DNA of 40,927 nucleotides, taken from contig QKHC01000037.1 in assembly GCA_003251175.1 (NCBI GenBank), positions 1 to 40,927 on the forward strand, written 5' to 3'. Of this stretch, positions 1,477 to 16,757 are shown piece by piece; the first letter of the stretch is position 1, and each line of letters begins with the position of its first letter. The translations under genes and the position numbers were made by a program. Under the pieces are notes generated by a model, which saw only the letters and a list, made by a program, of their open reading frames with translations, did not search any database and had not been told where the DNA came from. Source of the DNA: Gemmatimonadota bacterium (GTDB lineage: Bacteria > Gemmatimonadota > Gemmatimonadetes > Gemmatimonadales > GWC2-71-9).

Positions 1477-1860
1477 CTACGTGGTGGCGCTGCTCTCCCC
1501 GTGAATCGTCGGCGACGTCGCGTGCGCGCGGTGTACCCGCAGGGTGCTCAGCGACGCGTCCACCTCGACCGGCAGCTCCGCCAGTCCATCAGGCCCCAGC
1601 TCGAACGCCACGAAACCGGAGTGACTGACGCGCGCGATCCCCACTGGGCCACCCGGACCCGGGTCCACGCGGGCGACTCCGCCGATGCGCGCCAGGATGG
1701 GATGCTCGGGCACGTTGACAGTGACTGGCGCAGCCGACGCCGTCGCGACGTCGCCAAGACGGTGCCCGCCCGATCCGCGCAGGATGGCGTGCAACGTCCG
1801 CAGCGTCGACGTGGCGATCATGCGACGCGGGTCGAGCAGCGATGGTCGGAAGCGAGGCAT
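1477..1860 (-). CDS. Small protein resembling a Rieske base domain without the [2Fe-2S] cluster-binding subdomain
   Basis: 127 aa. VTVNVPEHPILARIGGVARVD..GPVGIARVSHSGFVAF followed directly by LAELPVEVDASLSTLRV; no cysteines. Lies 10 nt after the upstream operon gene. Confidence 0.45.
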   Translation of the reverse strand: MPRFRPSLLDPRRMIATSTLRTLHAILRGSGGHRLGDVATASAAPVTVNVPEHPILARIGGVARVDPGPGGPVGIARVSHSGFVAFELGPDGLAELPVEVDASLSTLRVHRAHATSPTIHGESSATT

Positions 1861-1870
1861 CGGCAGACTC

Positions 1871-3475
1871 TCAGAAACGGTAGCTGAGGCTCAGGTAGAC
1901 CTGATCGAGCCGACCGTCGGGACCAGTTTCGCGGTTGAGGGACGTGACCAGGTACCAGGCACGTCCGATTCCGACGTCCGCTTCGCCGCCGTACCAGACC
2001 ACGCGGCGGGTGCCGAGGCTGACCGGCGGATTGTCCTCCTGCCGCAGCCCGCCCGACAGCTCGAGGTGCAGCGGGTCGAGGGGATCCGCCGCCACACGAA
2101 GAGCGTGGAGCCATCCGGTCAGCTCGCCCGATTCGTAGCGGGTCGATCTCACCGACAGGCCGACGGCGGCCCGGCCGATGCGCTCGACGCCAGCCATGCC
2201 GGTGAGGGCCGTCGCGCGGCCCGCTGTGCCGCCGGCGGTGCTGCGACCCTCGACTCGCAGGCGGAAGTGCCCTCCGGCGAGGCTCGCGCCACCCCACGCT
2301 CCCTGACGGTAGCGGTCGTCGAAGGCCGTCACGGGATCGGTGACGTCGCGATAGAGTCGCACCGTGCGGCGGTTGTCAAAGCCCGCATCGACGCGCAACG
2401 GCCCGCGGGGATGGAACGAGACGAGCGCATAGCTGCTCGTGAAGGACAGCGGTTGCTCGCCGGCGTCCAGTCGCATGCCCCGGTAGAGATCCACCTCCTG
2501 GGCGGCTCGCAGCGTGACGCCGGGCGTCGTGATCATCGCCTGCAGGAAGCCGAATTCGCGGTTGGGATCGCCGGCGCGGTAGGAGCCGACGGCTCCCATG
2601 GTGACCGCCCACAGGGCTCCGCGCCTGGAGCTGCGCGCATCGCTGTGCAGCTGGAGGTATCCGCCGTAGTCGCGGATCGCGCCGTTGTAAGCCAGGTCCT
2701 CGGGCTCGGTGCCGCCGAACACGCCGAGGTTGGCATAGCGTCCCGGTACTTCGACGAACAGACCATCGAGCAGCAGGATCGATGACACGCCGGCGACGTA
2801 CTGCCGCCCCAACGCCGCGCGCACGGGAGCGCGCGCCGGCTGCCACAGCAGGACCAGCTGGTACACATCGGTGTCGGTGCGCGACGACGTACCCCCGGCG
2901 GCAAACTGCGAGCGCGCGGAGCGGGCGCGCACGTCGGCCGCGATGCCGAACGCCGTGCCGCCGAGGCGCGTGCCGGTGAGTCGCAGGTCGATGGCGGGCT
3001 GGGCATACTGTCCGGCATCCGGCGCGGTGCGCGTCATGACGTAGCGCGCGGCGATGCGACCGCGCAGACCGGTCCCCCAGGGGCGGCGCCGCACGGGCTC
3101 GATCGCGGGGGGCGCGGACGGCGGCGCCGGCGTGTCTGTCGCGGCTGTGCCGGCTGCAGCGGTGGGCTCGGCACCGGGGACGAAGCGCACCGGATCGCCT
3201 GGTACCACGTTGCCCACGGTGCCCGCCGCGATCTCGCACGCCGCGCCCTTGGACGACAGGTACCGCACGCGCAGCGTCGCGATCACCGAGTCGCCGCGGA
3301 CCACGCTGAGCTCAGCGCCCTCGGTCAGGCCGGCGTCACGTCCCGCGGTGACATAGATCTGGTCGCCGGACACGTACGACACGCGGGCCCAGCGGACGGT
3401 GGCCGAGTCCTGCGCGGCGCCGGCTGCCGTCATCAGACACGCACAGAGCACGGTGGCGAGTCCGAGGCGGCTCAC
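1871..3475 (-). CDS. Outer-membrane beta-barrel protein with signal peptide and N-terminal SH3-like segment (putative porin partner of multiheme cytochromes)
   Basis: GTG start at 3475 overlaps the upstream TGA (GTGA). 534 aa; signal peptide VSRLGLATVLCACLMTAAGAAQ; alternating amphipathic strands; C-terminal ...QVYLSLSYRF with terminal Phe. The longer 1871..4414 ORF runs into the cytochrome gene in another frame. Confidence 0.75.
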   Translation of the reverse strand: MSRLGLATVLCACLMTAAGAAQDSATVRWARVSYVSGDQIYVTAGRDAGLTEGAELSVVRGDSVIATLRVRYLSSKGAACEIAAGTVGNVVPGDPVRFVPGAEPTAAAGTAATDTPAPPSAPPAIEPVRRRPWGTGLRGRIAARYVMTRTAPDAGQYAQPAIDLRLTGTRLGGTAFGIAADVRARSARSQFAAGGTSSRTDTDVYQLVLLWQPARAPVRAALGRQYVAGVSSILLLDGLFVEVPGRYANLGVFGGTEPEDLAYNGAIRDYGGYLQLHSDARSSRRGALWAVTMGAVGSYRAGDPNREFGFLQAMITTPGVTLRAAQEVDLYRGMRLDAGEQPLSFTSSYALVSFHPRGPLRVDAGFDNRRTVRLYRDVTDPVTAFDDRYRQGAWGGASLAGGHFRLRVEGRSTAGGTAGRATALTGMAGVERIGRAAVGLSVRSTRYESGELTGWLHALRVAADPLDPLHLELSGGLRQEDNPPVSLGTRRVVWYGGEADVGIGRAWYLVTSLNRETGPDGRLDQVYLSLSYRF

Positions 3476-4731
3476 GGTGCGTTCCCCTGAGGATGGCAGC
3501 GCAGGCAGTCGCTCGGCGTCGGCCCATACCCTGCGACCCCCCGATGGTGTTCGTCCATGCGTGCCTGGCTGTGACACTGCGTGCAGGTGAATTGCGCGAA
3601 GTTGTCCGCCACCGTGTGGCAGTCGGAGCACGAGTTCCACCTTCCACGGTGCCTGCCGGAGTAGATCGGAAACCACGTGGCGTCGTGATCGAACCGCGCC
3701 CCGTCCCACGTCACCGTGCCATGGCAGGCGACGCAGTCGGTCGGGATGCCCGCGGCGACATGGCTCGGGTTGGTGGTCCCATCGTAGTCCTGCTGGTGGC
3801 AATCGACGCAGGCCACCGTGCCGCCGCTGAACGAGCCGCTCTGATGGCATTGGGCGCAGGTGAGCGTCGCATGGGCTCCGGTGAGCGAGAATCCCGTCTG
3901 ATTGTGATCGAAATGGGCCCCCTCCCAGCTCGTGGTTCCGTGACACGCGGCGCAGTCGGTCGGGAGCCCCGCCGTGGCATGGTTGGGGTCGCTGGTCGCG
4001 TCGTAATCGCGTTGATGACAGTCCACACACGCCGCGCTGGAGCCGGTGAAGGTGAAGTTGCGATGGCATTGATCGCAGGAGAGCCCGGCGTGAGCGCCGG
4101 TGAGCGGGAAACCCGCCTGGCTGTGATCGAAGCGCGCGCGGGCCCAGTCGATGGTCGAATGGCATTGCGTGCAGTCGGTCGAGAATCCGACCTGCTGGTG
4201 GTCGGGCGTGGCGCTGGCGTAGCGCGTCATGTGGCACGCCTCGCACCGCGACGGTTGTCCCACGAACGTGAGCCGTCCGAGGGCGACGCCGGCATGGCAG
4301 GCACGGCAATCGGCCAGCAGATGCGAGCCGTCGAGCGGGAACCTGGTCTGCGCGTGCTCCTGGACCATCGCGGTACGATCGAAGAAGCTGCGCGGGGTGT
4401 GACAGCGCGCGCACGCCGAGCCCAGTTCACCGCGGTGCAGGTCTTCGTGGCAAGCCACGCATTCGCGGGAGGTGCCGGCGAAGTCGAGCGATACGTGGCA
4501 GGCGCGACAGGCGGCCCGGGCGTGACCGCCGCGCAGCGGGAAGCCCGAGCTCGCGTGATCGAACTCCGGGGTGGTGCGGATCGCGGTCCAGCTGGCCGGC
4601 TGGTGGCAGGCCGCGCACTCGACCGCGAGTGCGCCGTGCGGCGAGGTCGTGGTCTGCTGGGCCGGCGCGCTGCCCGCCGTCGCCAGCGCGACGACCAGCG
4701 CGACCGCCGCGGTCCACAGGGCGCGCGTCAT
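3472..4731 (-). CDS. Secreted 16-heme c-type cytochrome (doubled-CXXCH type)
   Basis: 419 aa from ATG 4731 (ATGA overlap with upstream stop). Signal peptide MTRALWTAAVALVVALATAGSAPAQQ; 16 CXXCH motifs counted by eye. Confidence 0.93.
   Translation of the reverse strand: MTRALWTAAVALVVALATAGSAPAQQTTTSPHGALAVECAACHQPASWTAIRTTPEFDHASSGFPLRGGHARAACRACHVSLDFAGTSRECVACHEDLHRGELGSACARCHTPRSFFDRTAMVQEHAQTRFPLDGSHLLADCRACHAGVALGRLTFVGQPSRCEACHMTRYASATPDHQQVGFSTDCTQCHSTIDWARARFDHSQAGFPLTGAHAGLSCDQCHRNFTFTGSSAACVDCHQRDYDATSDPNHATAGLPTDCAACHGTTSWEGAHFDHNQTGFSLTGAHATLTCAQCHQSGSFSGGTVACVDCHQQDYDGTTNPSHVAAGIPTDCVACHGTVTWDGARFDHDATWFPIYSGRHRGRWNSCSDCHTVADNFAQFTCTQCHSQARMDEHHRGVAGYGPTPSDCLRCHPQGNAP
3694..4131 (-). 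repeat. Two tandem 73-aa (219-nt) protein repeats within the 16-heme cytochrome, three CXXCH per unit
   Basis: FDHSQAGFPLTGAHAGLSCDQCH...ACVDCHQRDYDATSDPNHATAGLPTDCAACHGTTSWEGAH followed by FDHNQTGFSLTGAHATLTCAQCH...ACVDCHQQDYDGTTNPSHVAAGIPTDCVACHGTVTWDGAR. Confidence 0.85.
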
Positions 4732-6383
4732 GACTTCCTTTCGTGGCAGGCTTCGCACTTCGTGGGCACCGGTCGATACACGCGGTCGGCGGGCGGCGCG
4801 GCGACCGCATGGCAGCGGTCGCACGCGACCCGGGCATGCGCGCCGGCGAGCGCGAAGCGCGAGTCGCGGTCGTGGTCGAAACGCGCCGCTGGTCGCCAGG
4901 CACGCTCGTCGTGACACGGCGCGCATCCACCGCGCCGCGCGTCGAACTGCGCGCCGTGGGGTGAGCGGTGACAGGCGGCGCAGGTCTGGGAGGCGCTGAA
5001 CGAGAGAGTGTCGCCCGCTGCCCGCTGCTGGCGACCCATGGAGGCATGGCACGCGCTGCACGCCACCGCGGCGTGCGCGCCAGCCAGTGTGAAGGTGAAC
5101 TTGGCGTGCGTCGCGACATCGACGGTCGAGGGACGGAAGGCAGCCACGGTGTGGCATCCGTTGCAGTCGCGCCCCGCCGGCCCGCGGTGCGGGTCGGTGT
5201 GATGGCAATCGATACAGCGGGCAGAGGCCGGACGCATCACCGTCGACCCCCCGCGTCGCGGGTGACAGGCCACGCAGCGCACCGTGGCATGCGCCCCCTC
5301 CAGGGGGTATCGGGCGGCCGCGTGGCGCGCCGCCGTGAACGTCGACGGCGTGAAGCCAGCGAGCGAGTGGCACGCGTCGCAGTCGACCGCCTTGCCCGCG
5401 AGAGTGGCCGCGCCGCCGTGGGGATCGCGGTGGCAGTCGGTGCAGGCCGCGAACGCCAGGGGCCCCCGCCGGGCGCCCGGTCGGCCGGAGAAGTCGTGGC
5501 AGCGGTCGCACGCGGTCTGGCGATGCGCGCCGCGCAGGGGATAGCGGGTGCGGTCGTGATCGAAGCCCGCCCGATTGAGCGCCGTGAACGCCGTCGTCAG
5601 GTGACAGTCACTACACGCCGCGCCCAGCCGGCCACGGTGCGGGTCGGCGTGACAGGCGGAGCACTCCGCGAACGGCAGCGGCCGGTAGCGGGGGATCCTG
5701 CGGCCCTGGCCATCGGTGGACAGCGACAGGCGTTCCGCGGCATGACAGGCGCCGCACTCGACCTTCACGTGTCGGCCGGTCAACGGGTACCGGGTACGGG
5801 CGTGATCGAACCCCGGCGTCGTGCTCCAGGTGGCGGCGTCATGACAGGATTCGCACCGCGGACCCAAAGCCGACCGATGGGGATCGTCGTGACAGGTCGC
5901 GCAGGCGGTCTCGAGGCCCGTCCAGCCCGCTTCCCGGCGTCGCACCGACTTCGCCGCCGCGGGCGACACGCGGAACTTCGTGGTGTGGCAGTCCCCGCAT
6001 GCGGTGCGAGCATGCTTTCCCGTCAGATTCCAGCCGGCCTCCCCGTGATCGAACGCATCGGGCGAGCCGCCCGGCCACGCGATCAGTCGGAAGTCTTCTC
6101 CTGCGTGGTCCGGATGACACGAGGCACAGTTGTCTCGGCCGGGGGCCGCATGATACCCGCGCCGCTGCGCCACCAGCCAGGCGATGTCTTCATGGCAGGC
6201 GAGGCAGTTCCTCGACAAGGCGTCCCGTCCGCCACTGTGGCACTTCGCACAGCGCAGCGCCCCTTCGAGCTCCGCGTGGGGTCGGGCCAGCTTGCCGGGA
6301 GAGATCTGCGCGGTCACGCGGGTGCCACCGACGAGGAGGCTGGAGGCGGCGAGCACGGTCCACAGGACGGCGACACGACGCAC
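4728..6383 (-). CDS. Secreted 20-heme c-type cytochrome
   Basis: GTG start at 6383, 551 aa. Signal peptide VRRVAVLWTVLAASSLLVGGTRVTAQ; 20 CXXCH motifs counted by eye; repeated FDH..TRYPL.G.H..V.C..CH units. Confidence 0.92.
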   Translation of the reverse strand: MRRVAVLWTVLAASSLLVGGTRVTAQISPGKLARPHAELEGALRCAKCHSGGRDALSRNCLACHEDIAWLVAQRRGYHAAPGRDNCASCHPDHAGEDFRLIAWPGGSPDAFDHGEAGWNLTGKHARTACGDCHTTKFRVSPAAAKSVRRREAGWTGLETACATCHDDPHRSALGPRCESCHDAATWSTTPGFDHARTRYPLTGRHVKVECGACHAAERLSLSTDGQGRRIPRYRPLPFAECSACHADPHRGRLGAACSDCHLTTAFTALNRAGFDHDRTRYPLRGAHRQTACDRCHDFSGRPGARRGPLAFAACTDCHRDPHGGAATLAGKAVDCDACHSLAGFTPSTFTAARHAAARYPLEGAHATVRCVACHPRRGGSTVMRPASARCIDCHHTDPHRGPAGRDCNGCHTVAAFRPSTVDVATHAKFTFTLAGAHAAVACSACHASMGRQQRAAGDTLSFSASQTCAACHRSPHGAQFDARRGGCAPCHDERAWRPAARFDHDRDSRFALAGAHARVACDRCHAVAAPPADRVYRPVPTKCEACHERKS

Positions 6384-6390
6384 GCCCCGC

Positions 6391-7371
6391 TCACCTGAGC
6401 CACGTGGCGCCGACCAGGACCGCCACCGCGACGTGGACGAGCACGGCTCCCAGCGCGGCCACGGCGAAAGGCCGGTGGACCACATGCCAGAGACGCAGCA
6501 GGCGCTGGGTGGCGCCGAGGAGCCGCGCTTGCTGCATCAGCGCCATTTCGCGGCGCGCCAGCTTGCGGATCCGGCGCAGGGTGTGGCGGTTCACGCGGCG
6601 CCCGCAGGCCCTCGCGAGGGCACGCGTGGCGCGCCAGCGCGCGAAGTCGTCCCGTACCAGCTGCACGAGGGTCGCGCCGATCCCCATGCCTTCACAGGGC
6701 CACGGGTCCTCGCCGAGAATCGACTCGACCTGCTCGACGGGCAGTCGCGCGCGGGTCGCGATCTCGGCGAGTAGCGTGTGACGCACCCGTGTGAGCTCCG
6801 CCGCACCCAGCTCGCGACCGGCCCGGCTGCGCGGCACGCGCACGTAGAGGTACCGGCCGATCAGTCCCGAGAGCCAGACCGCGAGCATGGCGAAATACCC
6901 CAGCCCGATGAGTCCGTGGAACTGCCAGCCGGCGTGCACCGCGGCGAGCAACGGGAGCACCAGGGCCAGGGCGACGTGCACGTCCAGCCAGCGCGCCATG
7001 GAGCCGGTGAACGCCAGCCGGCGAAAACGACGGCGCACCGGATAGAGCCACAGCGTGAGAAAGATCGCGAGCGCGAGAATGCCGGCGGCCTGGCCCACGT
7101 ACCCCGACGGCCGCAGCCACGGGTGGAGCGGCGAACGGAGCCGTTCAGCGGCCGGCGCGAAGTAGTAGCTCGCGCCGATCACCGTCAACCCGACCAGCGG
7201 GAGCGCGGCGAGCACGAGCCAGCGGAGCCAGTGGCGGCCCGGCAGCCGCTCCACGGCGCCGGAGGTCCGCGTTTCGGCGGACGGTCGCACCAAGCGGGGC
7301 CCGGGGGCCGCCGGGTCTGTTGCGATGGACGATGAGCGTGGTCGTGTCGGCGCGGTCGCGTGGCGCAGCAT
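6391..7371 (-). CDS. Diheme membrane cytochrome b-like protein (quinol/cytochrome electron-transfer anchor)
   Basis: 326 aa, about five hydrophobic helices. Paired His in two helices at matching 14-residue spacing: DVHVALALVLPLLAAVH and HRPFAVAALGAVLVH. First gene of the cytochrome operon. Confidence 0.75.
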   Translation of the reverse strand: MLRHATAPTRPRSSSIATDPAAPGPRLVRPSAETRTSGAVERLPGRHWLRWLVLAALPLVGLTVIGASYYFAPAAERLRSPLHPWLRPSGYVGQAAGILALAIFLTLWLYPVRRRFRRLAFTGSMARWLDVHVALALVLPLLAAVHAGWQFHGLIGLGYFAMLAVWLSGLIGRYLYVRVPRSRAGRELGAAELTRVRHTLLAEIATRARLPVEQVESILGEDPWPCEGMGIGATLVQLVRDDFARWRATRALARACGRRVNRHTLRRIRKLARREMALMQQARLLGATQRLLRLWHVVHRPFAVAALGAVLVHVAVAVLVGATWLR

Positions 7372-7841
7372 TTCCGGTCCAGTCCTCCCGGTCGATCGAG
7401 TCACGGCGCGTCGCCGTCGGTGCGCCACGGAGACCGCGAGGTCCCAATCTCGTTGTGGCGGCGGTGCGCGGCGTCGCTCGCCGTCACGCCGCTTCGGGTC
7501 AGTTGCCCGTCGGCCGTCACCGGCGCTTTGGTCACATGCCAGCGAGCGCGCTGGCGCGCGGCACGGGCCGTGCACCACGCAAGGCCCACGCCTTCGACAC
7601 CGGGTTGGCTATGACCATTTCTGGCATCGAGTTGGGATGCAAGCGGAGAATGCCCGGCGCGACACGGGTGGCTCGTGCTAGAGCAGCATGCACCGGTACG
7701 ATGCAGGACGCGCAAATCGGGAACGTCGCAGTCGGATTTGTCTCGACAGTCGCCCCACTGACCGGCCGCGTGCAGGTGACCCGGACGTCGGTGACCGGGC
7801 ACCGCGCAGCGTCGGCTCCGGGCGCCGGAGATTGATGCGCG

Positions 7842-9152
7842 ATGCTCGCCAATCTCGCGTTTGGGGTTGTTCTCCTCGCGGCGTTGTGGACGCAGGTGCG
7901 CCGCTTCCGACGTCGCGAGGCAAGCGCCCGGGTCGCGGCAGTTCGCTCCCGCGTGAGCGGCGCGGCCCCGCTCGCTCAGCACCCGCTCATCGACGCGCTG
8001 CGCTGCATCGGGTGCGGGTCGTGCGCCGACGCATGCCCCGAGGGCCAGGTGCTGGCGGTGGTCGCCGGCAAGGCTGCGTTGGTCGAGCCGAACCGGTGCA
8101 TCGGGCATGGGCTGTGTGCCGATGCGTGCCCGGTAGGAGCGATCGAAATCGTGACCGCTCCCCCGGGCGTGCGCGCGGACGCGCCGGTGCTCACGCCGGA
8201 GCTCGAAACCAACGTCCCGGGGCTGTTTGTAGCCGGAGAGCTGGGTGGCCTGGCGCTGATCAAGAACGCGGTGCGAACCGGTCGGGAGTGTGTCGACGCC
8301 GTGGCGCGACGGCTCGCGAGCCAGCGGCTGCGGCGACCGGCGGGGGGCCTGGACGTCTGCATCGTGGGGGCCGGACCGGCTGGACTGTCCGCGGCGCTGC
8401 GCGCGCACGAGCTGGGGCTGTCCTATCTCCTGCTGGAGCAGTCGACGCTGGGCGGGAGCGTGGCCAAGTACCCGCGCCAGAAGCTGGTGCTCACCAGTCC
8501 CATGGAGCTGCCGGTTTACGGGGTCTTCGACCGGCTCGAGATCAGGAAGGAAGCCCTGCTCGAGCTGTGGCAGCGGGTCGCGCGCGAGGTGCGGCTCGCC
8601 GTGCGGACCCAGCAACGGGTGGAGCACCTGAGCTGCGATCCCGACGGCAGCTTCACCGTGAACGCCGCCAACGGGCGGTGGCGTGCCGCCGCCGTCGTCC
8701 TGGCTATCGGCCGCCGCGGCTCGCCGCGCACGCTCGACATCCCCGGCGAGGAGCTCCCCAAGGTGATGTACGACCTGCTGGACGCCGCATCATACCGGCG
8801 CAAGCGCATCCTGGTGGTCGGTGGCGGAGACAGCGCGGTCGAGGCGGCGCTCGGTCTCGCCCACCAGCAGGGGAATCGGGTCACGCTCGCCTACCGGAAG
8901 GACGCATTCACGCGACTCAAGGCACGCAATGAGCAGCGCATCGAGGCCGCCATGCGGCGGGGCGGCGTGGCGGTGCTGTTCGGCGCCACGCCGGTCGCCG
9001 TTCGTACCGACGTGGTGGAGCTCGACGTACGGGGCCAACGCCGGGAGCTGCCCAACGACTTTGTGTGGGTGTTTGCTGGAGCGACTCCGCCCACCGCGTT
9101 TCTCGAGCGCATTGGGGTTACGGTGGGTGGCGGCGCGCTGTCCGCCGCCTGA
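7842..9152 (+). CDS. Membrane-anchored 2x ferredoxin-domain plus thioredoxin-reductase-like FAD/NAD(P) oxidoreductase, apparently circularly permuted
   Basis: N-terminal TM helix MLANLAFGVVLLAALW; CIGCGSCADACP and CIGHGLCADACP; TNVPGLFVAGELGGLALIKNAV..G; then CIVGAGPAGLSAAL and VVGGGDSAVEAALGLA. Confidence 0.85.
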   Translation: MLANLAFGVVLLAALWTQVRRFRRREASARVAAVRSRVSGAAPLAQHPLIDALRCIGCGSCADACPEGQVLAVVAGKAALVEPNRCIGHGLCADACPVGAIEIVTAPPGVRADAPVLTPELETNVPGLFVAGELGGLALIKNAVRTGRECVDAVARRLASQRLRRPAGGLDVCIVGAGPAGLSAALRAHELGLSYLLLEQSTLGGSVAKYPRQKLVLTSPMELPVYGVFDRLEIRKEALLELWQRVAREVRLAVRTQQRVEHLSCDPDGSFTVNAANGRWRAAAVVLAIGRRGSPRTLDIPGEELPKVMYDLLDAASYRRKRILVVGGGDSAVEAALGLAHQQGNRVTLAYRKDAFTRLKARNEQRIEAAMRRGGVAVLFGATPVAVRTDVVELDVRGQRRELPNDFVWVFAGATPPTAFLERIGVTVGGGALSAA

Positions 9153-9154
9153 GC

Positions 9155-10606
9155 TCAGGCTTCTGCGAGCAGCGGGGGACGACCGATCGGCTGGGCCGCC
9201 TGGACGGCGGCGGCCAGCGCCAGCACCCCCTCCTCGTCGCGCGGGCGCCCCACGATCTGCAGTCCCACGGGCAGTCCCTGCCCATCGACGCCGCAGGGTA
9301 CCGACGCCACCGGCAGGCCCGTGAGGCTCAGCACGAACGTCGGCGCGAGCCAGTCGACGTACGTCTGCATGGGGGCGCCCCCGATGGTGTCCGGGTAGTT
9401 CTGCTCGACCGGGAACGGTGCAACCGCCATGGTGGGCGTGAGCAGGTGGTCATGGTGCGCAAACAGCTCGCGGAAACGGTGCCACAGCTGCCCGCGCACC
9501 CGTTCCGCCCGCCCGATGGCTCGCGTTGTCGTCTCGAGCCCCGCTTTGGTGTTGTCGCGGACGTTGACGCCCATTTCCGGGACGTGATCGAGTCGCGGGG
9601 TCATCCAGTTGACGAACCACAGCCCGCGCAGCGCGAGGAACGCGTCCCGGGCGGCGCGCAGATCGAGTGACACCTCCTCGACCGCCACACCGTTGGCCGT
9701 GAGCGCTTCGGCGGCGCGTCGGCACGCCCGCTCCAGCGCCGGATCGATGCCAATACCAGCGAGGTCGGCGCAGTATGCAACCCGCAGGCCCGCACGCGGG
9801 CCCGCGCGCACGGCAGCCACGAAGTCCCGGCCCGCCACCGGTTGGGCCAGGGGGGCGAGCGGCGATGGTCCCGCGATGGCCTGCAGCATCTGCGCCGCAT
9901 CCTCCGCGGTGCGCGCCATCGGTCCCTCGACCTGCAGCGTATCCCACACCCAGTCGTACGGGTGGGTGGGCACGAGACCCACCGATGGGCGCAATCCGAC
10001 GACGCCGCAGAACGCCGCTGGAATGCGCAGCGAACCGCCGAGGTCGGTCCCTTCCGCGAGCGCGATCATGCCGGTCGCGAGTCCCGCCGCGCCTCCACCT
10101 GTAGAGCCGCCCGCGCTCTTCGTGGTGTCCCAGGGGTTTCGGGTGCGTCCGAAGACGTCGTTCCAGGTGTTGCCGCCGGCCGCGAACTCGGGACAGTTGG
10201 TTTTGCCGATGATCACCGCGCCCGCCGCCCGCAGCCGCGCGACGACAGCAGCGTCCTCGCTGGGCACGTAGTCGCGATAGAGCGGCGATCCGTAGGTGGT
10301 GCGCAGTCCCGCCACCGGGGTGACATCCTTGATGCCGACGGGCACGCCGGCCAGGGCCCCCGGATCCTCGCCCTGCGCGATGCGTCGCTCGAGAGCGCGG
10401 GCGTCGTCCCGGGCCCGGGCATTGAGCGTGACGATGGCGTTGATGGTCGAGTTGTGCTGGTCGACCCTCGCCAGCACGGCGTCGACCACGTCGACCGGAG
10501 ACACGTCGCCCGATGCGACGAGATCACGGATCGCCACCGCCGGCAGGTCGGCGAGACCGCCCGCACGGATGCTCACGGATTCACCGCCACGCCGCTCGGG
10601 CACCAC
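9155..10606 (-). CDS. Amidase signature family enzyme
   Basis: 483 aa. GVPVGIKDVTPVAGLRTTYGS, IIGKTNCPEFAAGGNTWNDVFGRTRNPWDTTKSAGGSTGGGAAGLATGMIALAEGTDLGGSLRIPAAFCGVVGLRPS (Lys/Ser/Ser catalytic pattern). Confidence 0.92.
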   Translation of the reverse strand: MVPERRGGESVSIRAGGLADLPAVAIRDLVASGDVSPVDVVDAVLARVDQHNSTINAIVTLNARARDDARALERRIAQGEDPGALAGVPVGIKDVTPVAGLRTTYGSPLYRDYVPSEDAAVVARLRAAGAVIIGKTNCPEFAAGGNTWNDVFGRTRNPWDTTKSAGGSTGGGAAGLATGMIALAEGTDLGGSLRIPAAFCGVVGLRPSVGLVPTHPYDWVWDTLQVEGPMARTAEDAAQMLQAIAGPSPLAPLAQPVAGRDFVAAVRAGPRAGLRVAYCADLAGIGIDPALERACRRAAEALTANGVAVEEVSLDLRAARDAFLALRGLWFVNWMTPRLDHVPEMGVNVRDNTKAGLETTTRAIGRAERVRGQLWHRFRELFAHHDHLLTPTMAVAPFPVEQNYPDTIGGAPMQTYVDWLAPTFVLSLTGLPVASVPCGVDGQGLPVGLQIVGRPRDEEGVLALAAAVQAAQPIGRPPLLAEA

Positions 10607-10612
10607 CGCCGA

Positions 10613-11410
10613 TCACGGCGCGCCCCATTCTCCCACGAACGCGACCGTCCGCGCGAACGCCGCTTCGCCTCCCTTGAACAGCCACGGGAAGCACCCGATC
10701 ACCAGCCGGGTGTTCTGCAGCTCCGGTGCGTCGATCCGGCCGCCGAGGTTCTCGATGTGGATGCAGTCGTGCGGGAACAATGCGTTGTGGGTCAGCTGGT
10801 ACGCCTCGTCAGGAAAGAGCTCGCGGGCACGCTCGGGACCGAACTTCGCTTCGGCCTTGGCGCGCACGCGATCGCAATGGCCGTGCATCCCCTTTCCCAG
10901 GAAGCGGCCGATGGGGAGGTTCATCGGATGGTCGGTAGATATGCAGTCCACGCCCCACAGGTGGATGCGCTTCTCGAGCAGCCACGGGACCATGCTCGGG
11001 TGGGCCCCGGGATGCAGGTGGATGTAGCGCTCCTCGTCGGGGGTCGCGCCGAATTCGCCGTAGCGATGCCAGCCCGTGTGCAGGATGAGGATGTCGCCCG
11101 GCTTCACCTCGACGCGTTGCTCGATCATCTGCGGCGTGTATACGGCGAGCTCGTCCATGTCATCGCGCAAGTCCACAATCACGCCCGGTCCGCACAGCCA
11201 CTCCAGCGGCAGCTCGTCGATCGTCTTGCCGGCCGTCACGAAGTGCCGCGGCGCGTCGAGGTGGGTGCCCATGTGGTTCGAGGTCTGGATGTACTGCGCG
11301 TTCACCCCATGCTCCGCCTTGCGCTTGATGTATTTCACCTCGAAGGGCGGATAGTACGGCCAGAACGAGCAGCGCTCGTTGAGGGGCTGGGAGAGGTCGT
11401 ACAGCTGCAT
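10613..11410 (-). CDS. Cyclase family protein (kynurenine formamidase/isatin hydrolase-like metal hydrolase)
   Basis: 265 aa from ATG 11410. Metal-binding HMGTHLDAPRHF motif; DLSQPLNERCSFWP; DILILHTGW. Confidence 0.85.
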   Translation of the reverse strand: MQLYDLSQPLNERCSFWPYYPPFEVKYIKRKAEHGVNAQYIQTSNHMGTHLDAPRHFVTAGKTIDELPLEWLCGPGVIVDLRDDMDELAVYTPQMIEQRVEVKPGDILILHTGWHRYGEFGATPDEERYIHLHPGAHPSMVPWLLEKRIHLWGVDCISTDHPMNLPIGRFLGKGMHGHCDRVRAKAEAKFGPERARELFPDEAYQLTHNALFPHDCIHIENLGGRIDAPELQNTRLVIGCFPWLFKGGEAAFARTVAFVGEWGAP

Positions 11411-11545
11411 CGATGAACCTCCGGCACAAAGGGTTGCGGAGTGCGGATTAAATCGATCGTGTACCGCGCTCGCTCCCATCCGCACGAAGCGCAACACGCG
11501 AATCCGCCATCCGGCATTCCCAATCCACAACGAGCGGGCGGCCTT

Positions 11546-13051
11546 TCATGCGGACCCGAGCTCCGATCTCATCAGGATCCAGTACAGCGCTCCCGCCACC
11601 AGGGCAGCGGAGAACCATGCGCCGTCGAACAGGAAGCGCACGGCTGGGTGGGTCAGTCCCGCCAAAGCGGTCGCGATGCCCGCGACGAGCGCCACCAGGG
11701 CGCGTGGATTGAGTCCGCGCATGTACGCGTAGGGACCGGCGGGCGCGTACAGCCCGGGTAGGTCGAGCCGACCGCGGCGCAGCAGTGCGTAGTCGCAGAC
11801 CATGACCCCGGCGACGGCGCCGAGCAGTCCCGAATACCCGATGAGCCATGTCTGGTACTGGTCGAGCAACTTCCATGGAAAGATGGCGATCCCGGCAACC
11901 CCGGCCAGGAGACCGCCGAGGCGGAAGCTGATGCGGCTGGGCCGCAGCGCCGCGATGCTGTTCGCAGGGGCCACGACGTTGGCGGCGATGTTGGTGGTGA
12001 GCGTGGCTACGATCACCGCCAGCAGGGCGCCGACGCCGAGCAGGGGGTTGCCGCTCTCGGCCGTCAGCCGTGAGAGCAGGTCGACCGGGTTCCAGATCGC
12101 TTCCCCGTAGATGATCAGCGTCGCGCTGGTCACCGCCACGCCGATGAAGGCGAACAGCGGCATCGTGGTGAGCAGGCCGAGCGCCTGGCCCACGACTTGG
12201 TCGCGCTGACTGCGGGCATAACGGGTGAAGTCCGGGATGTTGAGCGACAGGGTCGCCCAGAACCCCACCATGGCGGTGACCCAGGGAACGAAGGTCGTGA
12301 GCAGGAAGCGCCCGCTCGGCGCCGCGGGTCGCTGCAGCGCATCGGCACGCGCCAGGATGGCGCCGATTCCGCCGGTCCGCGCGGCAGCCCAGCCGAGCAG
12401 CGCGATTCCCATGAGAATCAGCAGCGGCGCCGCCAGAGTCTCGAGGCGCTTGATGCTCTCGGTGCCGGCCCAGACGAAGTACATGTTGACCAGCCAGAAC
12501 AGCAGGAACGCGGCGAAGTGCGGCGCCCCGTATCCCATGAAGCGCCACGGGCCGCCCAGTCCCTCCCAGGCGGGCCATAGGATCGCGAGCAGCGCGTGGA
12601 TCGCGAGTCCGCCAACCCATGTCTGGATGCCGAACCAGCCGCACGCCACGACGGAGCGCAGCAGCGAAGGCACGTGGGCGCCCACAGTCCCGAAGGCGGC
12701 GCGCGCGAAGACCGGGAAGGGCACGCCGTAGCGCGTGCCCGCGTGGGCGTTGATCACCATCGGCACGAGGACGATGGCGTTCCCGAGGAAGATCGCGACC
12801 AGGCTCTGCCGCCACGTCATGCCCGCCCCGACCATGCTCGCGGCAAGCATGTAGGTCGGGATGCAGACGCTCATGCCGACCCACAGCGATGCGAGATGCC
12901 ACAACGTCCAGGTCCGCTGCCGGGCCGTCGTCGGCGCGAGGTCGGCATTGACGAGCGGACCGGGTGGCAGGTCGTGGGTGAGCTCCACGAGACCGTTCAC
13001 CGTGACGGTCGCGGCCTCCCCGGACCCAGCGGTGCGATGGATCTTGCTCAC
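11546..13051 (-). CDS. NCS1 family nucleobase/hydantoin-type cation symporter
   Basis: 501 aa, about 12 TM segments. NADLAPTTARQRTWTLWHLASLWVGMSVCIPTYMLAASMVGAGMTWRQSLVAIFLGN; GTRYGVPFPVFARAAFG; GTG start overlaps the upstream TGA. Confidence 0.92.
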   Translation of the reverse strand: MSKIHRTAGSGEAATVTVNGLVELTHDLPPGPLVNADLAPTTARQRTWTLWHLASLWVGMSVCIPTYMLAASMVGAGMTWRQSLVAIFLGNAIVLVPMVINAHAGTRYGVPFPVFARAAFGTVGAHVPSLLRSVVACGWFGIQTWVGGLAIHALLAILWPAWEGLGGPWRFMGYGAPHFAAFLLFWLVNMYFVWAGTESIKRLETLAAPLLILMGIALLGWAAARTGGIGAILARADALQRPAAPSGRFLLTTFVPWVTAMVGFWATLSLNIPDFTRYARSQRDQVVGQALGLLTTMPLFAFIGVAVTSATLIIYGEAIWNPVDLLSRLTAESGNPLLGVGALLAVIVATLTTNIAANVVAPANSIAALRPSRISFRLGGLLAGVAGIAIFPWKLLDQYQTWLIGYSGLLGAVAGVMVCDYALLRRGRLDLPGLYAPAGPYAYMRGLNPRALVALVAGIATALAGLTHPAVRFLFDGAWFSAALVAGALYWILMRSELGSA

Positions 13052-13947
13052 CGTTTCGTCGCGTCCCCGGCTCCGGCACTCGCCCGCTCGAACGCCGCGG
13101 CGAGCGCGCGGCGGGTGAGCACACCCACGAGCTGGCGGCGATAGGCGCTCGACGCGTGGATGTCCCCCGGAGGATCGACGTCCTTGGCGGCGGCCGCCTG
13201 CGCGGCCTCGCGCAACGCGGCGGGGGTCGGCGGCTCGCCTTTGAGTGCCTTGCGCGCGCGGGCAGCGAGGACGGGCCCCTCACCCACACCCAGTAGCGTG
13301 ATGCGGCTGTCGGCGCAGCGCCCGCGCTCGTCGAGCGTCACGACCGCGGCCACGCCCGCGAGCGCGTAATCACCGTGTCGCCGCGCAACTTCGAGGAATG
13401 CCCAGCCGCTGCGCGGTGGTGGCGGCGGACAGACGACCTCCACCAGCAGCTCACCCGGGGCGAGCGCCGTCTGGAACAGTCCGGTGAAGAACCGCTCGGC
13501 GCTCACGCTGCGCGTTCCCTCACGGCCGCGCACGATGAACCGCGCGTCCAGCGCGAGCAGAACGGCCGGGATCTCCGCTGCGGGATCGGCGTGCGCGGCC
13601 GAGCCGCCCAGCGTGCCGCGGTTGCGGATCTGGGCGTGGGCGACGGACGGCATCGTCTCCGCGAGCAGGGGCGCGCCCCGGATCACGTCGGTGTGGTGCT
13701 CCAGGGTTCGCTGACGGGTCATGGCTCCGCAGTGGATCTCGCCGCGATCGTCGCGACGCACGAAGTCGAGCTCGGTGACGCGGTTCAGGTCCACCAGCAC
13801 ACCTGGCCGTGCCAGTCGGAAGTTCATCGCGGGAATCAGACTCTGGCCGCCCGCCAGCGGCTTCGCGTCGCTGCCATGGGCGTGGAGGATCTCCAGGGCC
13901 TCGTCGACGCTCGCCGGGCGGTGATACGCGAACGCTGCGGGCTTCAC
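13048..13947 (-). CDS. Molybdenum hydroxylase FAD-binding subunit (CoxM/XdhB-like)
   Basis: 299 aa from GTG 13947. AFAYHRPASVDEALEIL, KPLAGGQSLIPAMNFRLARP, HAQIRNRGTLGGSAAHADPAAEIPAVLLALDA. Confidence 0.92.
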   Translation of the reverse strand: MKPAAFAYHRPASVDEALEILHAHGSDAKPLAGGQSLIPAMNFRLARPGVLVDLNRVTELDFVRRDDRGEIHCGAMTRQRTLEHHTDVIRGAPLLAETMPSVAHAQIRNRGTLGGSAAHADPAAEIPAVLLALDARFIVRGREGTRSVSAERFFTGLFQTALAPGELLVEVVCPPPPPRSGWAFLEVARRHGDYALAGVAAVVTLDERGRCADSRITLLGVGEGPVLAARARKALKGEPPTPAALREAAQAAAAKDVDPPGDIHASSAYRRQLVGVLTRRALAAAFERASAGAGDATKR

Positions 13948-16757
13948 GCGCTGGCCTCGCCCGTGCGTCGGCCCGCCAGCTCCCGGTGGACAAGCTCGAG
14001 TCCCTGTCGTGTCATCAGCTTCGCCGCCGTGTCCAGCACCCGCTGGCCGACGCCGGCGATCCGGCCGCCCACCTGCAGCTCGGCGCGGTATCGCATGACG
14101 GTCCCCGCAGCATCCTCCTCCAGCGACACCTGCGCCGTCCCTCTCGTGAATCCGAGCCCGCTGTGCCCATCCACCACCATGGCGAAGCGCTGCGGTGGCT
14201 CGCGGTCCAGCAGCGTGACCCGCACCGTGAATTCCGCCGCCGTCACGGGTCCGATCCCCACCCGCATGGCACCGTGATAGCTCGCCTCGCCCTGCTGCTC
14301 GAGCGCCATGCCGCCGGGCAGGGCCCGCACCAGCACCGCAGGATCCTGCAGGGCGTCCCAGACCACGGCTCGGGGGAGCCGGAACACGTAGCTGCCCTCG
14401 ACGATCACCTGGTTGCGGCGCTGGGGCGGGGTGCGTTGCAGCAGCTGGAAGAGGCGATCCGGGCTGAGGGGGATTTCCGTGATCTCGACGTGGAAGTCTG
14501 CCAGTGCATCCTCCACGGCCTGCGCGAACGCCGCTCCCGTGGGGATGCAGCCGGCCTCGCCGACGCCCTTCAGGCCGATGGGGCTCAGCGGTGACGGCGT
14601 CTCGCGGTGGCCGATCACGATCGGCGGGACCTCGGTGGCTGTCGGCAGCAGGTAGTCCATGAGCGAAGCGTTCTGCAGCTGGCCGTTGTCGTCCCACATC
14701 AACTGCTCGTAGAACGCATTGCCGATCCCGTGGGCGACGCCGCCATGGATCTGTCCTTCAACGAGCATCGGATTGATCAGCCGGCCGCAATCGTGCACGA
14801 CCACGTACTTCTGGATGGTGACCATCGCGGTTTCGGGATCCACCTCGACGATCATCGCGTGCACGCCGCTCGCCGTGCTTCCGCGGTCTGGTCCGTAGTA
14901 GGCCGTCGCTTCGAGTCCAGGCTCGGTCCCCGGCCGCACGGCGCCGCGCAGCGGGTTGGCTTGCGCGGCGAGCGCGCCGAGATCGATGCTGCGGTCGGAT
15001 CCGACGACGCGCACCGCGCCGCCGACCAACTCGAGGCCCTCCGGCGGCGTCTCCAGTAGTCGGCTCGCGAGATCGAAGACCTTGGTCCGGACCGCGGTGG
15101 CCGCCGCATGGCAGGCGGTGCCGGCCACCACTGCGCCACGACTGGCGAAGGTCCCGGTCCCCCAGTTGAACTCGCGGGTGTCACCGGTAACGACATGGAC
15201 GTGCTCGATGCGCACGGCCAACACATCGGCCACGATCTGGGCGAACGCGGTGAAATGGCCCTGTCCCTGCGTGCCGACCCCGGTCGCGACGCGAACCTGC
15301 CCGCTGGGCTCGACGGTCACGCGGGCCCCTTCGTACGGTCCGATTCCCGTGCCCTCGATGTAGGAGACGATCCCGAGGCCGACGTGCCGACCCGCGGCAC
15401 GGGCCCGCGGTTGCTCCTCGTGAAGGAAGTGGTGGTACCCGATCAGCTTTGCGGCCTCTTCGAGCGCGGGTGCGTAGTCACCGCTGTCGTAGACGAGTGG
15501 CGCCGAGTCTTGAAACAGAATGTGGTGATCGTACGGGAACCGGTCGCGCGACAGGTAGTTGCGCCGGCGGATCTCGAGTCGGTCCAGACCGAGTTCCCGT
15601 GCGGCGAGATCGAGCAGCCGCTCCATCACGAACACGCCGTGCTGGCGTCCGGCGCCGCGTACCGGCGTCACGATCGGCTTGTTCGTGAACACGGCGGTGA
15701 ACTCGGTGTCGTAGGCCGGTACGTCATACGGTCCGAGCAGCGTGCACTGGGAATTGATCGGCACGGTGAGCCCGTAGGGATCGTAGGCTCCGGTGTCGTG
15801 CAGGAACACGTCCCGGATGCCGAGGATGCGGCCATCCTGCGCGACCGCCAGCTCGGCATCGTGGACCTGACCCCGCTCCTGCGTCGTCGCGAAGAAGTTC
15901 TCCTGTCGGTCTTCCGTCCACTTCACGGGGCGGCCGAGCTGCATGGCGATCCAAGGGATCAGCACTTCCTCGGGGTAGTGCATCATGATCTTGGGACCGA
16001 AGCCGCCGCCCACGAACGGGGCGATGACGCGCACCTGCGACTCCAGCAGACCCAGGCGCGCTGCCAGCCCGTTGCGAATCGGGATCGGCGCCTGGGTCGT
16101 GTCCCAGATCGTCAGCTCCTCGGCGCGGGCATCCCATTGGGCCACCACGCAACGGTTCTCGATGGCGGCCGAGAGCCCCCGGTCGTACCGGAACCGCCGC
16201 CGGATCACGCGGTGCGCGGCGGCGCGGGCCGCGTCATAGTCGCCGGTGCGCTGTACGACGTGGGCGGCCAGGTTCGACGCGAGATGCTCGTGCACACGCG
16301 CCGCCCCGGCTGCCATCGCCGCCTCGAGATCGACGACCGCCGGCAATGGCTCGATGTCCACCACGACGTCTGCGAGGGCGTCTTCCGCCACGTACCGGCT
16401 CTGCGCCACGATCATCGCGATCGGCTCCCCGACGTGCCGCACCTTGTCGCGAACGAGCGGGACCTGGGTGCAGGTGTGGAAGATCAATCCCGGTATCGGA
16501 GGCGGCGGGACGAGCAGGGGACCGGGGCGCCAGTAGTCGCCCAGATCAGCGGCCGTAATGACGGAGATGACACCCGGCCGGCGGCGCGCTGCCGAGACAT
16601 CGACGTCGCGCAGTCGGCCGTGGGCGTGCTCGCTGCGCACGAACGCCGCGTGCAGCTGGCCATCGAGCTGGACGTCGTCTACGAACAGCGCGCGGCCTGT
16701 GAGGAGGCGCTCGTCCTCGCTCCGGCGTACGCGAGCGCCGACGTAGCGCTCAGGCAC
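13944..16757 (-). CDS. Molybdenum hydroxylase large subunit (CoxL/XdhA-like, form-II-type motif) fused to a C-terminal CoxG/SRPBCC domain
   Basis: 937 aa from GTG 16757. GARVRRSEDERLLTGRALFVDDVQLDGQLHAAFVRSEHAHG; APFVGGGFGPK; PVRGAGRQHGVFVMER; GLKGVGEAGCIPTGAA; then C-terminal VEGSYVFRLPRAVVWDALQDPAVLVRALPGG...GVGQRVLDTAAKLM typical of CoxG. Confidence 0.9.
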   Translation of the reverse strand: MPERYVGARVRRSEDERLLTGRALFVDDVQLDGQLHAAFVRSEHAHGRLRDVDVSAARRRPGVISVITAADLGDYWRPGPLLVPPPPIPGLIFHTCTQVPLVRDKVRHVGEPIAMIVAQSRYVAEDALADVVVDIEPLPAVVDLEAAMAAGAARVHEHLASNLAAHVVQRTGDYDAARAAAHRVIRRRFRYDRGLSAAIENRCVVAQWDARAEELTIWDTTQAPIPIRNGLAARLGLLESQVRVIAPFVGGGFGPKIMMHYPEEVLIPWIAMQLGRPVKWTEDRQENFFATTQERGQVHDAELAVAQDGRILGIRDVFLHDTGAYDPYGLTVPINSQCTLLGPYDVPAYDTEFTAVFTNKPIVTPVRGAGRQHGVFVMERLLDLAARELGLDRLEIRRRNYLSRDRFPYDHHILFQDSAPLVYDSGDYAPALEEAAKLIGYHHFLHEEQPRARAAGRHVGLGIVSYIEGTGIGPYEGARVTVEPSGQVRVATGVGTQGQGHFTAFAQIVADVLAVRIEHVHVVTGDTREFNWGTGTFASRGAVVAGTACHAAATAVRTKVFDLASRLLETPPEGLELVGGAVRVVGSDRSIDLGALAAQANPLRGAVRPGTEPGLEATAYYGPDRGSTASGVHAMIVEVDPETAMVTIQKYVVVHDCGRLINPMLVEGQIHGGVAHGIGNAFYEQLMWDDNGQLQNASLMDYLLPTATEVPPIVIGHRETPSPLSPIGLKGVGEAGCIPTGAAFAQAVEDALADFHVEITEIPLSPDRLFQLLQRTPPQRRNQVIVEGSYVFRLPRAVVWDALQDPAVLVRALPGGMALEQQGEASYHGAMRVGIGPVTAAEFTVRVTLLDREPPQRFAMVVDGHSGLGFTRGTAQVSLEEDAAGTVMRYRAELQVGGRIAGVGQRVLDTAAKLMTRQGLELVHRELAGRRTGEASA

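Follow-up and report, generated by a model that had tools for sequence, protein, structure and literature searches.

We found a set of five genes in a Gemmatimonadota MAG that probably encodes a chain of 38 hemes leading from cytoplasmic NAD(P)H across both membranes to the outside of the cell. The genes lie in the window, i.e., the whole 40,927-nucleotide stretch of DNA that was analyzed, and encode a flavoprotein, a diheme cytochrome b, two multiheme cytochromes c (MHC1 and MHC2), and an outer-membrane beta-barrel protein. It is likely that this module forms a trans-envelope conduit of some sort, and we lean toward electron export that is driven by NAD(P)H and independent of quinones.

Gene content of the locus

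Gene calling confirmed six ORFs between positions 1477 and 9152, with the same coordinates as in an earlier sequence-only reading of this stretch (Table 1). That reading had also placed a Fe-S/FAD oxidoreductase divergently to an operon, which the gene coordinates and Pfam matches bear out: the flavoprotein gene is divergent from the cytochrome b gene in the window and on a separate transcript.

Table 1. Features of the conduit locus in the window
Feature	Position	Strand	Remarks
Flavoprotein	7842..9152	+	436 aa; membrane-anchored FAD/Fe-S oxidoreductase
Flavoprotein-cytochrome b divergent intergenic region	7372..7841	.	Presumed promoters; from gene coordinates
Cytochrome b	6391..7371	-	326 aa from ATG; diheme
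MHC1, 20-heme cytochrome c	4728..6383	-	551 aa; GTG start; signal peptide
MHC2, 16-heme cytochrome c	3472..4731	-	419 aa; signal peptide; ATG overlaps the stop of the preceding gene
MHC2 module stretch (aa 187-408), three 3-heme modules in a row	3508..4173	-	From heme spacing
Outer-membrane beta-barrel protein	1871..3475	-	534 aa; GTG start; signal peptide
Rieske-like ORF	1477..1860	-	Relic without the CTH...CPNHG cluster-ligand segment

The flavoprotein (Pfam Pyr_redox_3 and Fer4 dicluster) begins with a helix at aa 1 to 19 followed by basic residues, and carries two ferredoxin motifs (C55 C58 C61 C65 and C86 H89 C92 C96) ahead of FAD and NAD(P) Rossmann domains at aa ~170 to 430. Its C-terminal two thirds share the FAD/NAD(P) fold of YpdA/TrxR-like ferredoxin-NADP reductases, with matches to TIGR04018 (E 1e-49) and PDB 7a76 (E 2e-29). 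It is not a YpdA bacillithiol disulfide reductase, scoring 168.7 bits against a family cut-off of 339.9, and differs from YpdA in its additional membrane anchor and two Fe-S motifs. Judged from its sequence, the protein looks NADPH-type (YpdA/TrxR-like), and we infer that NADPH is preferred over NADH as the donor. Of the two donors suggested earlier, NAD(P)H or ferredoxin, the former is supported, whereas nothing specific spoke for the latter.

Cytochrome b has five hydrophobic segments and a basic loop of ~117 residues joining helices 4 and 5, which we took as lying on the cytoplasmic side. Its motifs are W128-x3-H132-x13-H146, S168-G-x-x-G172, and W295-x3-H299-x13-H313; the two WX3HX13H motifs and SGXXG are present in the window protein and in 19/19 aligned homologues, across which the histidine pairs H132/H146 and H299/H313 are invariant. 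These four histidines in two HX13H pairs agree with the earlier assignment of a diheme protein, and the doubled HX13H is the pattern of transmembrane electron-transfer cytochromes. Pfam gave at most a weak cytochrome b561 match, and a PDB sequence search with the cytochrome b profile gave no meaningful one.

The two exported cytochromes contain exactly 20 (MHC1) and 16 (MHC2) CXXCH motifs within 970 aa, as had been counted before (36 in about 970 residues), while composition-preserving shuffles averaged 0.21 and 0.19, respectively. Both match Cytochrome_C7/Cytochrom_c3_2 in Pfam and pack a heme into every 27.6 (MHC1) or 26.2 (MHC2) residues; PDB sequence searches with either gave a weak cytochrome c match at best. 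MHC1 homologues have 14 to 23 CXXCH, mostly 17, 20, or 23, and we propose MHC1 as a periplasm-spanning wire. MHC2 consists of 7 cap hemes plus k three-heme modules of ~73 residues, with k ranging from 2 to 18 across homologues; the chains seen have 12 to 61 hemes. In the window, k is 3, with modules of 73, 73, and 76 residues and heme spacings of 32/16/25, 32/16/25, and 35/15/26. Judging from these repeats, the number of three-heme modules sets the length of MHC2. The structure model of MHC2 was weak (pLDDT 66.7), and this model, a poor basis for a fold search, had no match in the PDB.

The product of the 1871-3475 gene, previously read as an outer-membrane-type barrel, was modeled alone by AlphaFold2 (mean pLDDT 75.7) and is predicted to form 22 strands at aa 135 to 534, free of a plug. 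The barrel is preceded by the signal peptide, a small beta domain at aa ~28 to 98, and a linker. This protein had zero Pfam matches, and a PDB sequence search with its profile returned nothing meaningful. Its fold matches were generic large barrels, e.g., ushers and TonB-dependent receptors, and were uninformative; MtrB was absent among the 50 PDB fold matches listed.

The remaining ORF had been described as a Rieske-like remnant, and rightly so: exported Rieske proteins from the host's own order align with its residues ~10 to 88 (E down to 4e-9), but it lacks the CTH...CPNHG ligand region. By its sequence, it is a relic outside the conserved module.

Conservation and distribution of the module

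Homologous loci were obtained by an alignment-based search of genome contigs with cytochrome b; one cytochrome b sequence as the query against genome contigs gave zero matches. The census covered 57 long loci carrying cytochrome b. Among these, the flavoprotein was present in 56, two multiheme cytochromes in 56, the barrel in 49, and the complete set in 48, and the synteny search that the sequence-only reading had called for thus found the flavoprotein/b/two-MHC/barrel module kept as a unit. Across 46 loci, the distance matrices for cytochrome b, the flavoprotein, MHC1, and the barrel are mutually correlated (Mantel r 0.82 to 0.91).

The hosts belong to at least eight phyla, including Gemmatimonadota, Eisenbacteria, Acidobacteria, Bacteroidota, Ignavibacteria, Calditrichota, and Neomarinimicrobiota, and the module was found in about a tenth of the Gemmatimonadota and Bacteroidota sampled. 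A complete module is located on a plasmid of Emticicia, a cultured member of Bacteroidota, adjoining a cytochrome c assembly gene. A Rieske gene on that plasmid is not related to the Rieske-like ORF of the window, since the sequences do not align.

Short relatives were found on plasmids of Sphingobium, Acetobacter, Methylophaga, and Spirosoma, in regions for copper or heavy-metal resistance; the proteobacterial plasmids searched held short relatives only. These clusters encode a 2Fe-2S/FNR reductase, a cytochrome b, and a 7-heme cytochrome. They share with the long loci an NAD(P)H reductase as partner, a cytochrome b that is homologous (HMM E 1e-14 to 1e-21), and a cytochrome with homology to the N-terminal part of MHC1. 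Unlike the long loci, they lack the barrel and the second MHC, and their reductase belongs to an unrelated NAD(P)H family (FAD_binding_6, NAD_binding_1, Fer2).

Relationship to known porin-cytochrome conduits

The module matches the PCC3 type of porin-cytochrome conduit (He et al. 2017, PMC5566968; in Gallionellaceae, PMC10734462), as judged against its published description, and is a little-studied relative of it. The inner-membrane protein of PCC3 is ~300 aa long and combines five helices with an SGXXG and a pair of WX3HX13H motifs (cytochrome b here, 326 aa, five hydrophobic segments). PCC3 further has a periplasmic MHC of ~21 hemes (20 in MHC1, putatively periplasmic), a second, extracellular MHC with repeats and a very variable number of hemes, reported as 10 to 85 (repeat modules and 12 to 61 hemes in MHC2 and its homologues, which would be extracellular), 22 to 39 residues per heme (26 to 28 in the window), and an adjacent porin (a predicted barrel here). 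However, PCC3 porins are mostly described as many-stranded, with up to 42 strands compared with the 22 predicted here, and the described hosts are Proteobacteria, whereas our module resides in other phyla. We call it a PCC3 variant because a flavoprotein with Fe-S centers, absent from the four genes described for PCC3, is a constant partner here, linked in 56/57 long loci. The PCC3 description lists those four genes without making them a requirement.

The evidence on PCC3 in the literature found consists of sequence and expression data, mostly from Proteobacteria. He et al. 2017 modeled proteobacterial PCC3 as trading electrons with the quinone pool, with possible Fe(II) oxidation (PMC5566968), and PCC3 clusters are known from Fe(II) oxidizers; in strain ES-1, Fe(II) lowered the expression of PCC3 genes (PMC8788666). 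The expression data do not point to one single role.

Our literature search for the module in Bacteroidota, Gemmatimonadota, and Eisenbacteria, which covered few subscription journals, returned the PCC3 papers and one karst MAG study only, and a prior description is possible. In the accessible part of that 2026 study (PMC13264449), Group 1 pairs a large cytochrome (4- to 5-kb gene) with a ~20-strand porin encoded next to it, and in 7/11 a ferredoxin-NADP reductase is encoded close by; this part labels the cytochromes decaheme and describes no diheme cytochrome b, module rule, or mechanism. Compared by these descriptions, Group 1 is possibly the same module as that of the window.

The MtrCAB, MtoAB, and PioAB systems are alike in principle, joining an outer-membrane barrel to a periplasmic multiheme cytochrome, but have a decaheme MtrA-family cytochrome and an MtrB-type barrel of 26 to 28 strands, with 28 predicted for Mtr itself. 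The window module is not a member of these, given its 20 and 16 hemes, 22 predicted strands, and 29.1 bits against the TIGR03508 (DmsE/MtrA family) cut-off of 192.2. The Geobacter Pcc system (OmbB-OmaB-OmcB) has a barrel of similar size (18 to 22 motifs), but its periplasmic cytochromes have 5 to 14 hemes (PMC4245776), which excludes the 20-heme cytochrome of the window, and the diheme b and flavoprotein, regular partners here, are not obligatory there. The earlier view that the gene content is unlike Mtr, Pcc, or Omb operons therefore held for the features tested, but not as a lack of precedent, given the PCC3 fit, which it did not name, and the karst reductases.

Proposed mechanism and alternative explanations

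Cytoplasmic NAD(P)H would reduce the FAD of the membrane-anchored flavoprotein, whose two Fe-S centers may pass electrons to the inner b heme (H132/H299) and on to the outer one (H146/H313), a stacked pair ending at the periplasmic face. From there, the 20 hemes of MHC1 would carry them across the periplasm, the predicted 22-strand barrel would let the heme chain pass the outer membrane, and the 16 hemes of MHC2 would deliver them to an extracellular acceptor, such as Fe(III)/Mn(IV) minerals, humics, or another cell. The order and direction of flow, the cytochrome occupying the barrel, and the acceptor are given here as we infer them. The net outward flow would discard reducing power without quinones. 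The redox potential of NADPH is about -0.32 V; transfer to Fe(III) or humics should be downhill, and outward flow should run along the membrane potential.

In favor of an NAD(P)H-fed conduit, we count the five-gene conservation, the Mantel correlation, the cytochrome b motifs and basic loop, the N-terminal anchor of the flavoprotein, the predicted plug-free barrel, the residues per heme, and the expected downhill direction, and in favor of NAD(P)H as the entry point, the partner swap to an unrelated NAD(P)H reductase in the short clusters. Counted against it are the position of the flavoprotein gene outside the b/MHC/barrel transcript in the window and the weak MHC2 model without a PDB match, so that the wire geometry is conjectural; the quinone-pool/Fe(II)-oxidation model of He et al. 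and the lack of a single role in the PCC3 expression data speak against NAD(P)H export. The host of the window also encodes terminal oxidases, and the module is therefore not its sole electron sink.

The same conduit might instead serve quinones. In that case, cytochrome b would oxidize quinol or reduce quinone, in line with the proposal of He et al. for PCC3, and the flavoprotein would be accessory or feed another pool; electrons could leave the cell from quinol or enter it from an extracellular donor. HX13H pairs do occur in quinone-active cytochromes b too, and the divergent transcription of the window flavoprotein would fit. A quinone-coupled system, however, would need neither a flavoprotein nor a substitute reductase, whereas the long loci keep the former almost without exception and an NAD(P)H reductase from an unrelated family stands in for it in the short relatives, and we regard this explanation as rather unlikely. 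It is more doubtful still that the conduit runs inward, taking electrons from Fe(II), a cathode, or other cells to reduce a pyridine nucleotide or quinone. Fe(II) oxidizers carry PCC3 clusters and multiheme wires are reversible in principle, but the step from Fe(II) to NAD(P)+ would be strongly uphill and against the membrane potential, and Fe(II) down-regulates the PCC3 genes of strain ES-1.

We give equally little credence to a purely periplasmic role, in which the cytochromes would act as a capacitor or hold a stock of reductant, for instance to detoxify metals or peroxide, and the barrel would be an ordinary channel. The barrel-less homologous clusters in plasmid copper-resistance regions suggest that electrons from the NAD(P)H/b/c core can go to a periplasmic acceptor, but the barrel accompanies most long loci (49/57) with a divergence tracking that of the cytochromes, and a length of up to 61 hemes per MHC2 chain is more suggestive of transfer over distance than of local storage.

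Implications

Returning to NAD(P)H-driven export, we tentatively extend it to a broader proposal, which is possible though short of probable: that the module is an NAD(P)H:extracellular-acceptor oxidoreductase that is widespread and works without quinones, and that a single covalent MHC2 chain with 7 + 3k hemes (k spanning at least 2 to 18) forms a single-molecule wire outward from the outer membrane, its reach tuned in evolution by gain and loss of three-heme modules. The module rule makes wire length countable, which opens it to correlation with habitat and to in vitro tests; a cultured bacterium holds a complete copy on a plasmid. Gemmatimonadota and Bacteroidota are seldom regarded as electroactive. 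For this PCC3-like version, the electron source would follow from its constitutive flavoprotein that takes NAD(P)H.

Organization of the module in the window

In this purely sequence-based analysis, all gene positions proposed in the sequence-only reading were confirmed (see table), as were its counts of 20 and 16 CXXCH motifs in the two multiheme cytochromes c, MHC1 and MHC2, which lie far above the expectation from shuffled sequences. The cytochrome b stop and the MHC1 start are 7 bases apart, and the ATG of MHC2 and the GTG of the barrel gene each overlap the preceding stop by 4 bases, a spacing that makes an operon likely. A gap of 470 bases separates the flavoprotein and cytochrome b genes. 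Across residues 10-88, the ORF described as a Rieske-like remnant is genuinely related to Rieske proteins; the segment that would hold the cluster ligands is deleted, and the ORF is outside the conserved module. The adjoining region (window 9155-16757) is a catabolic neighbourhood that encodes an amidase, a cyclase, a cytosine/purine-type permease, and a CoxM/CoxL-like molybdenum hydroxylase gene set.

Features of the module in the window
Feature	Position	Strand	Remark
Cytochrome b gene	7371-6391	-	First in transcription order
MHC1, 20-heme cytochrome	6383-4728	-	Second in transcription order
MHC2, 16-heme cytochrome	4731-3472	-	Third in transcription order
Barrel gene	3475-1871	-	Fourth in transcription order
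Small Rieske-like ORF	1860-1477	-	Last in transcription order
Flavoprotein gene	7842-9152	+	Divergent from cytochrome b gene
Flavoprotein ferredoxin motifs	8004-8129	+	aa 55-96

Distribution and gene order

About one tenth of the sampled Gemmatimonadota (roughly 25/298 at strong E-values) and Bacteroidota (roughly 29/297) carry cytochrome b homologues. A profile search of the contig collection, with E-values relative to candidate stretches only, returned 550 places; among the best 80, the hosts with names belong to Gemmatimonadota, Eisenbacteria, Krumholzibacteriota, Acidobacteria, Bacteroidota, Ignavibacteria, Calditrichota, Neomarinimicrobiota, Zixibacteria, and others. Among the 93 distinct loci, 57 were on contigs long enough to judge neighbours, with genes called by a simple script: 56 had the flavoprotein, 56 at least two multiheme cytochromes, 49 the barrel, and 48 all components, and several absent barrels may lie beyond contig ends. 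In Bacteroidota and in one family (f2) of the host's order, the genes commonly run cytochrome b-flavoprotein-MHC1-MHC2-barrel. The flavoprotein is commonly divergent in the host family and placed after the barrel in other families of the host's class. For the four non-repetitive proteins, distances are correlated with one another (Mantel r 0.82-0.91, 46 loci), as expected from joint inheritance; the correlation alone is no proof of interaction. In the cultured bacterium Emticicia oligotrophica DSM 17448, the complete module lies on plasmid pEMTOL02 (NC_018749.1 72341-91069), where its neighbours are ccsA (cytochrome c assembly), YceI, a Rieske gene, and a sigma factor. At one further locus, L075, a barrel follows each of two MHC2-type cytochromes, suggesting that the outer half of the module was duplicated.

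The host MAG (2.2 Mb, 56% complete), whose module-bearing relatives are named Gemmatimonadetes/Gemmatimonadales, encodes haem-copper oxidase-family proteins and further multiheme clusters. One (L157, contig 49, 1-5853) is a second cluster of the cytochrome b561 type and comprises, besides that protein, a 503-aa barrel-like protein and 10-, 11-, and 16-heme cytochromes, with a heme spacing unrelated to the module's. A similar 11-heme/barrel/16-heme trio directly adjoins the module at another locus, L044. Exported octaheme proteins occur in pairs on host contigs 130 and 64, and their heme spacing is nearly identical.

Protein features

All four HX13H histidines are invariant in the aligned cytochrome b homologues, and so are SGXXG and the tryptophan that precedes each histidine pair. 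Hydropathy gives five membrane segments, and the side of the 117-residue loop is taken as cytoplasmic because basic residues lie there (positive-inside rule). The flavoprotein has Pyr_redox_3 and Fer4 domains, and its closest solved structures are YpdA/TrxR-like. Its second Fe-S motif, C-x2-H-x2-C-x3-C-P, has His for the second Cys in 45/46 loci, and the first keeps its second Cys in only 23/46; these motifs may bind [3Fe-4S] or His-ligated clusters.

The barrel is predicted, from an 11-sequence alignment, to have 22 strands, with a small N-terminal beta domain and no plug. MHC1 homologues have 14-23 hemes, mostly 17, 20, or 23. MHC2 combines a cap (spacing near 36/16/16/35/21/25) with repeats of about 32/16/25, the last about 35/15/27, giving 7 + 3k hemes (13 to 61) in 53/73 called genes; among those that deviate are genes with miscalled starts, fragments, and other cytochrome types. 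Heme number evolves rapidly in MHC2, with 13 versus 30 hemes at 67% cytochrome b identity, and is constant at 20 in MHC1.

Proposed electron donor and relation to known conduits

Short plasmid clusters in four genera (L161-L164), lying close to copper-resistance or heavy-metal genes, combine a 2Fe-2S/FNR reductase with a cytochrome b homologue and with a 7-heme cytochrome that corresponds to the N-terminus of MHC1. This partner swap is the strongest argument that the module may be coupled to NAD(P)H, and the retained pair suggests that the MHC1 N-terminus docks on cytochrome b. The putative direction of electron flow is argued purely from thermodynamic inference. Similar clusters without a porin were described by He et al. 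(PMC5566968). Genes for ferredoxin-NADP reductases are reported in a 2026 study (PMC13264449) to lie close to clusters resembling the module.

In a search of open-licence papers, the four-gene core was found to agree with published descriptions of PCC3, a porin-cytochrome conduit type, in those features that could be compared. The module differs from PCC3 in its flavoprotein, its host phyla, and the size of its barrel. Together with the 2026 reductase report, this points to the module as a probable variant of the already known PCC3 type.
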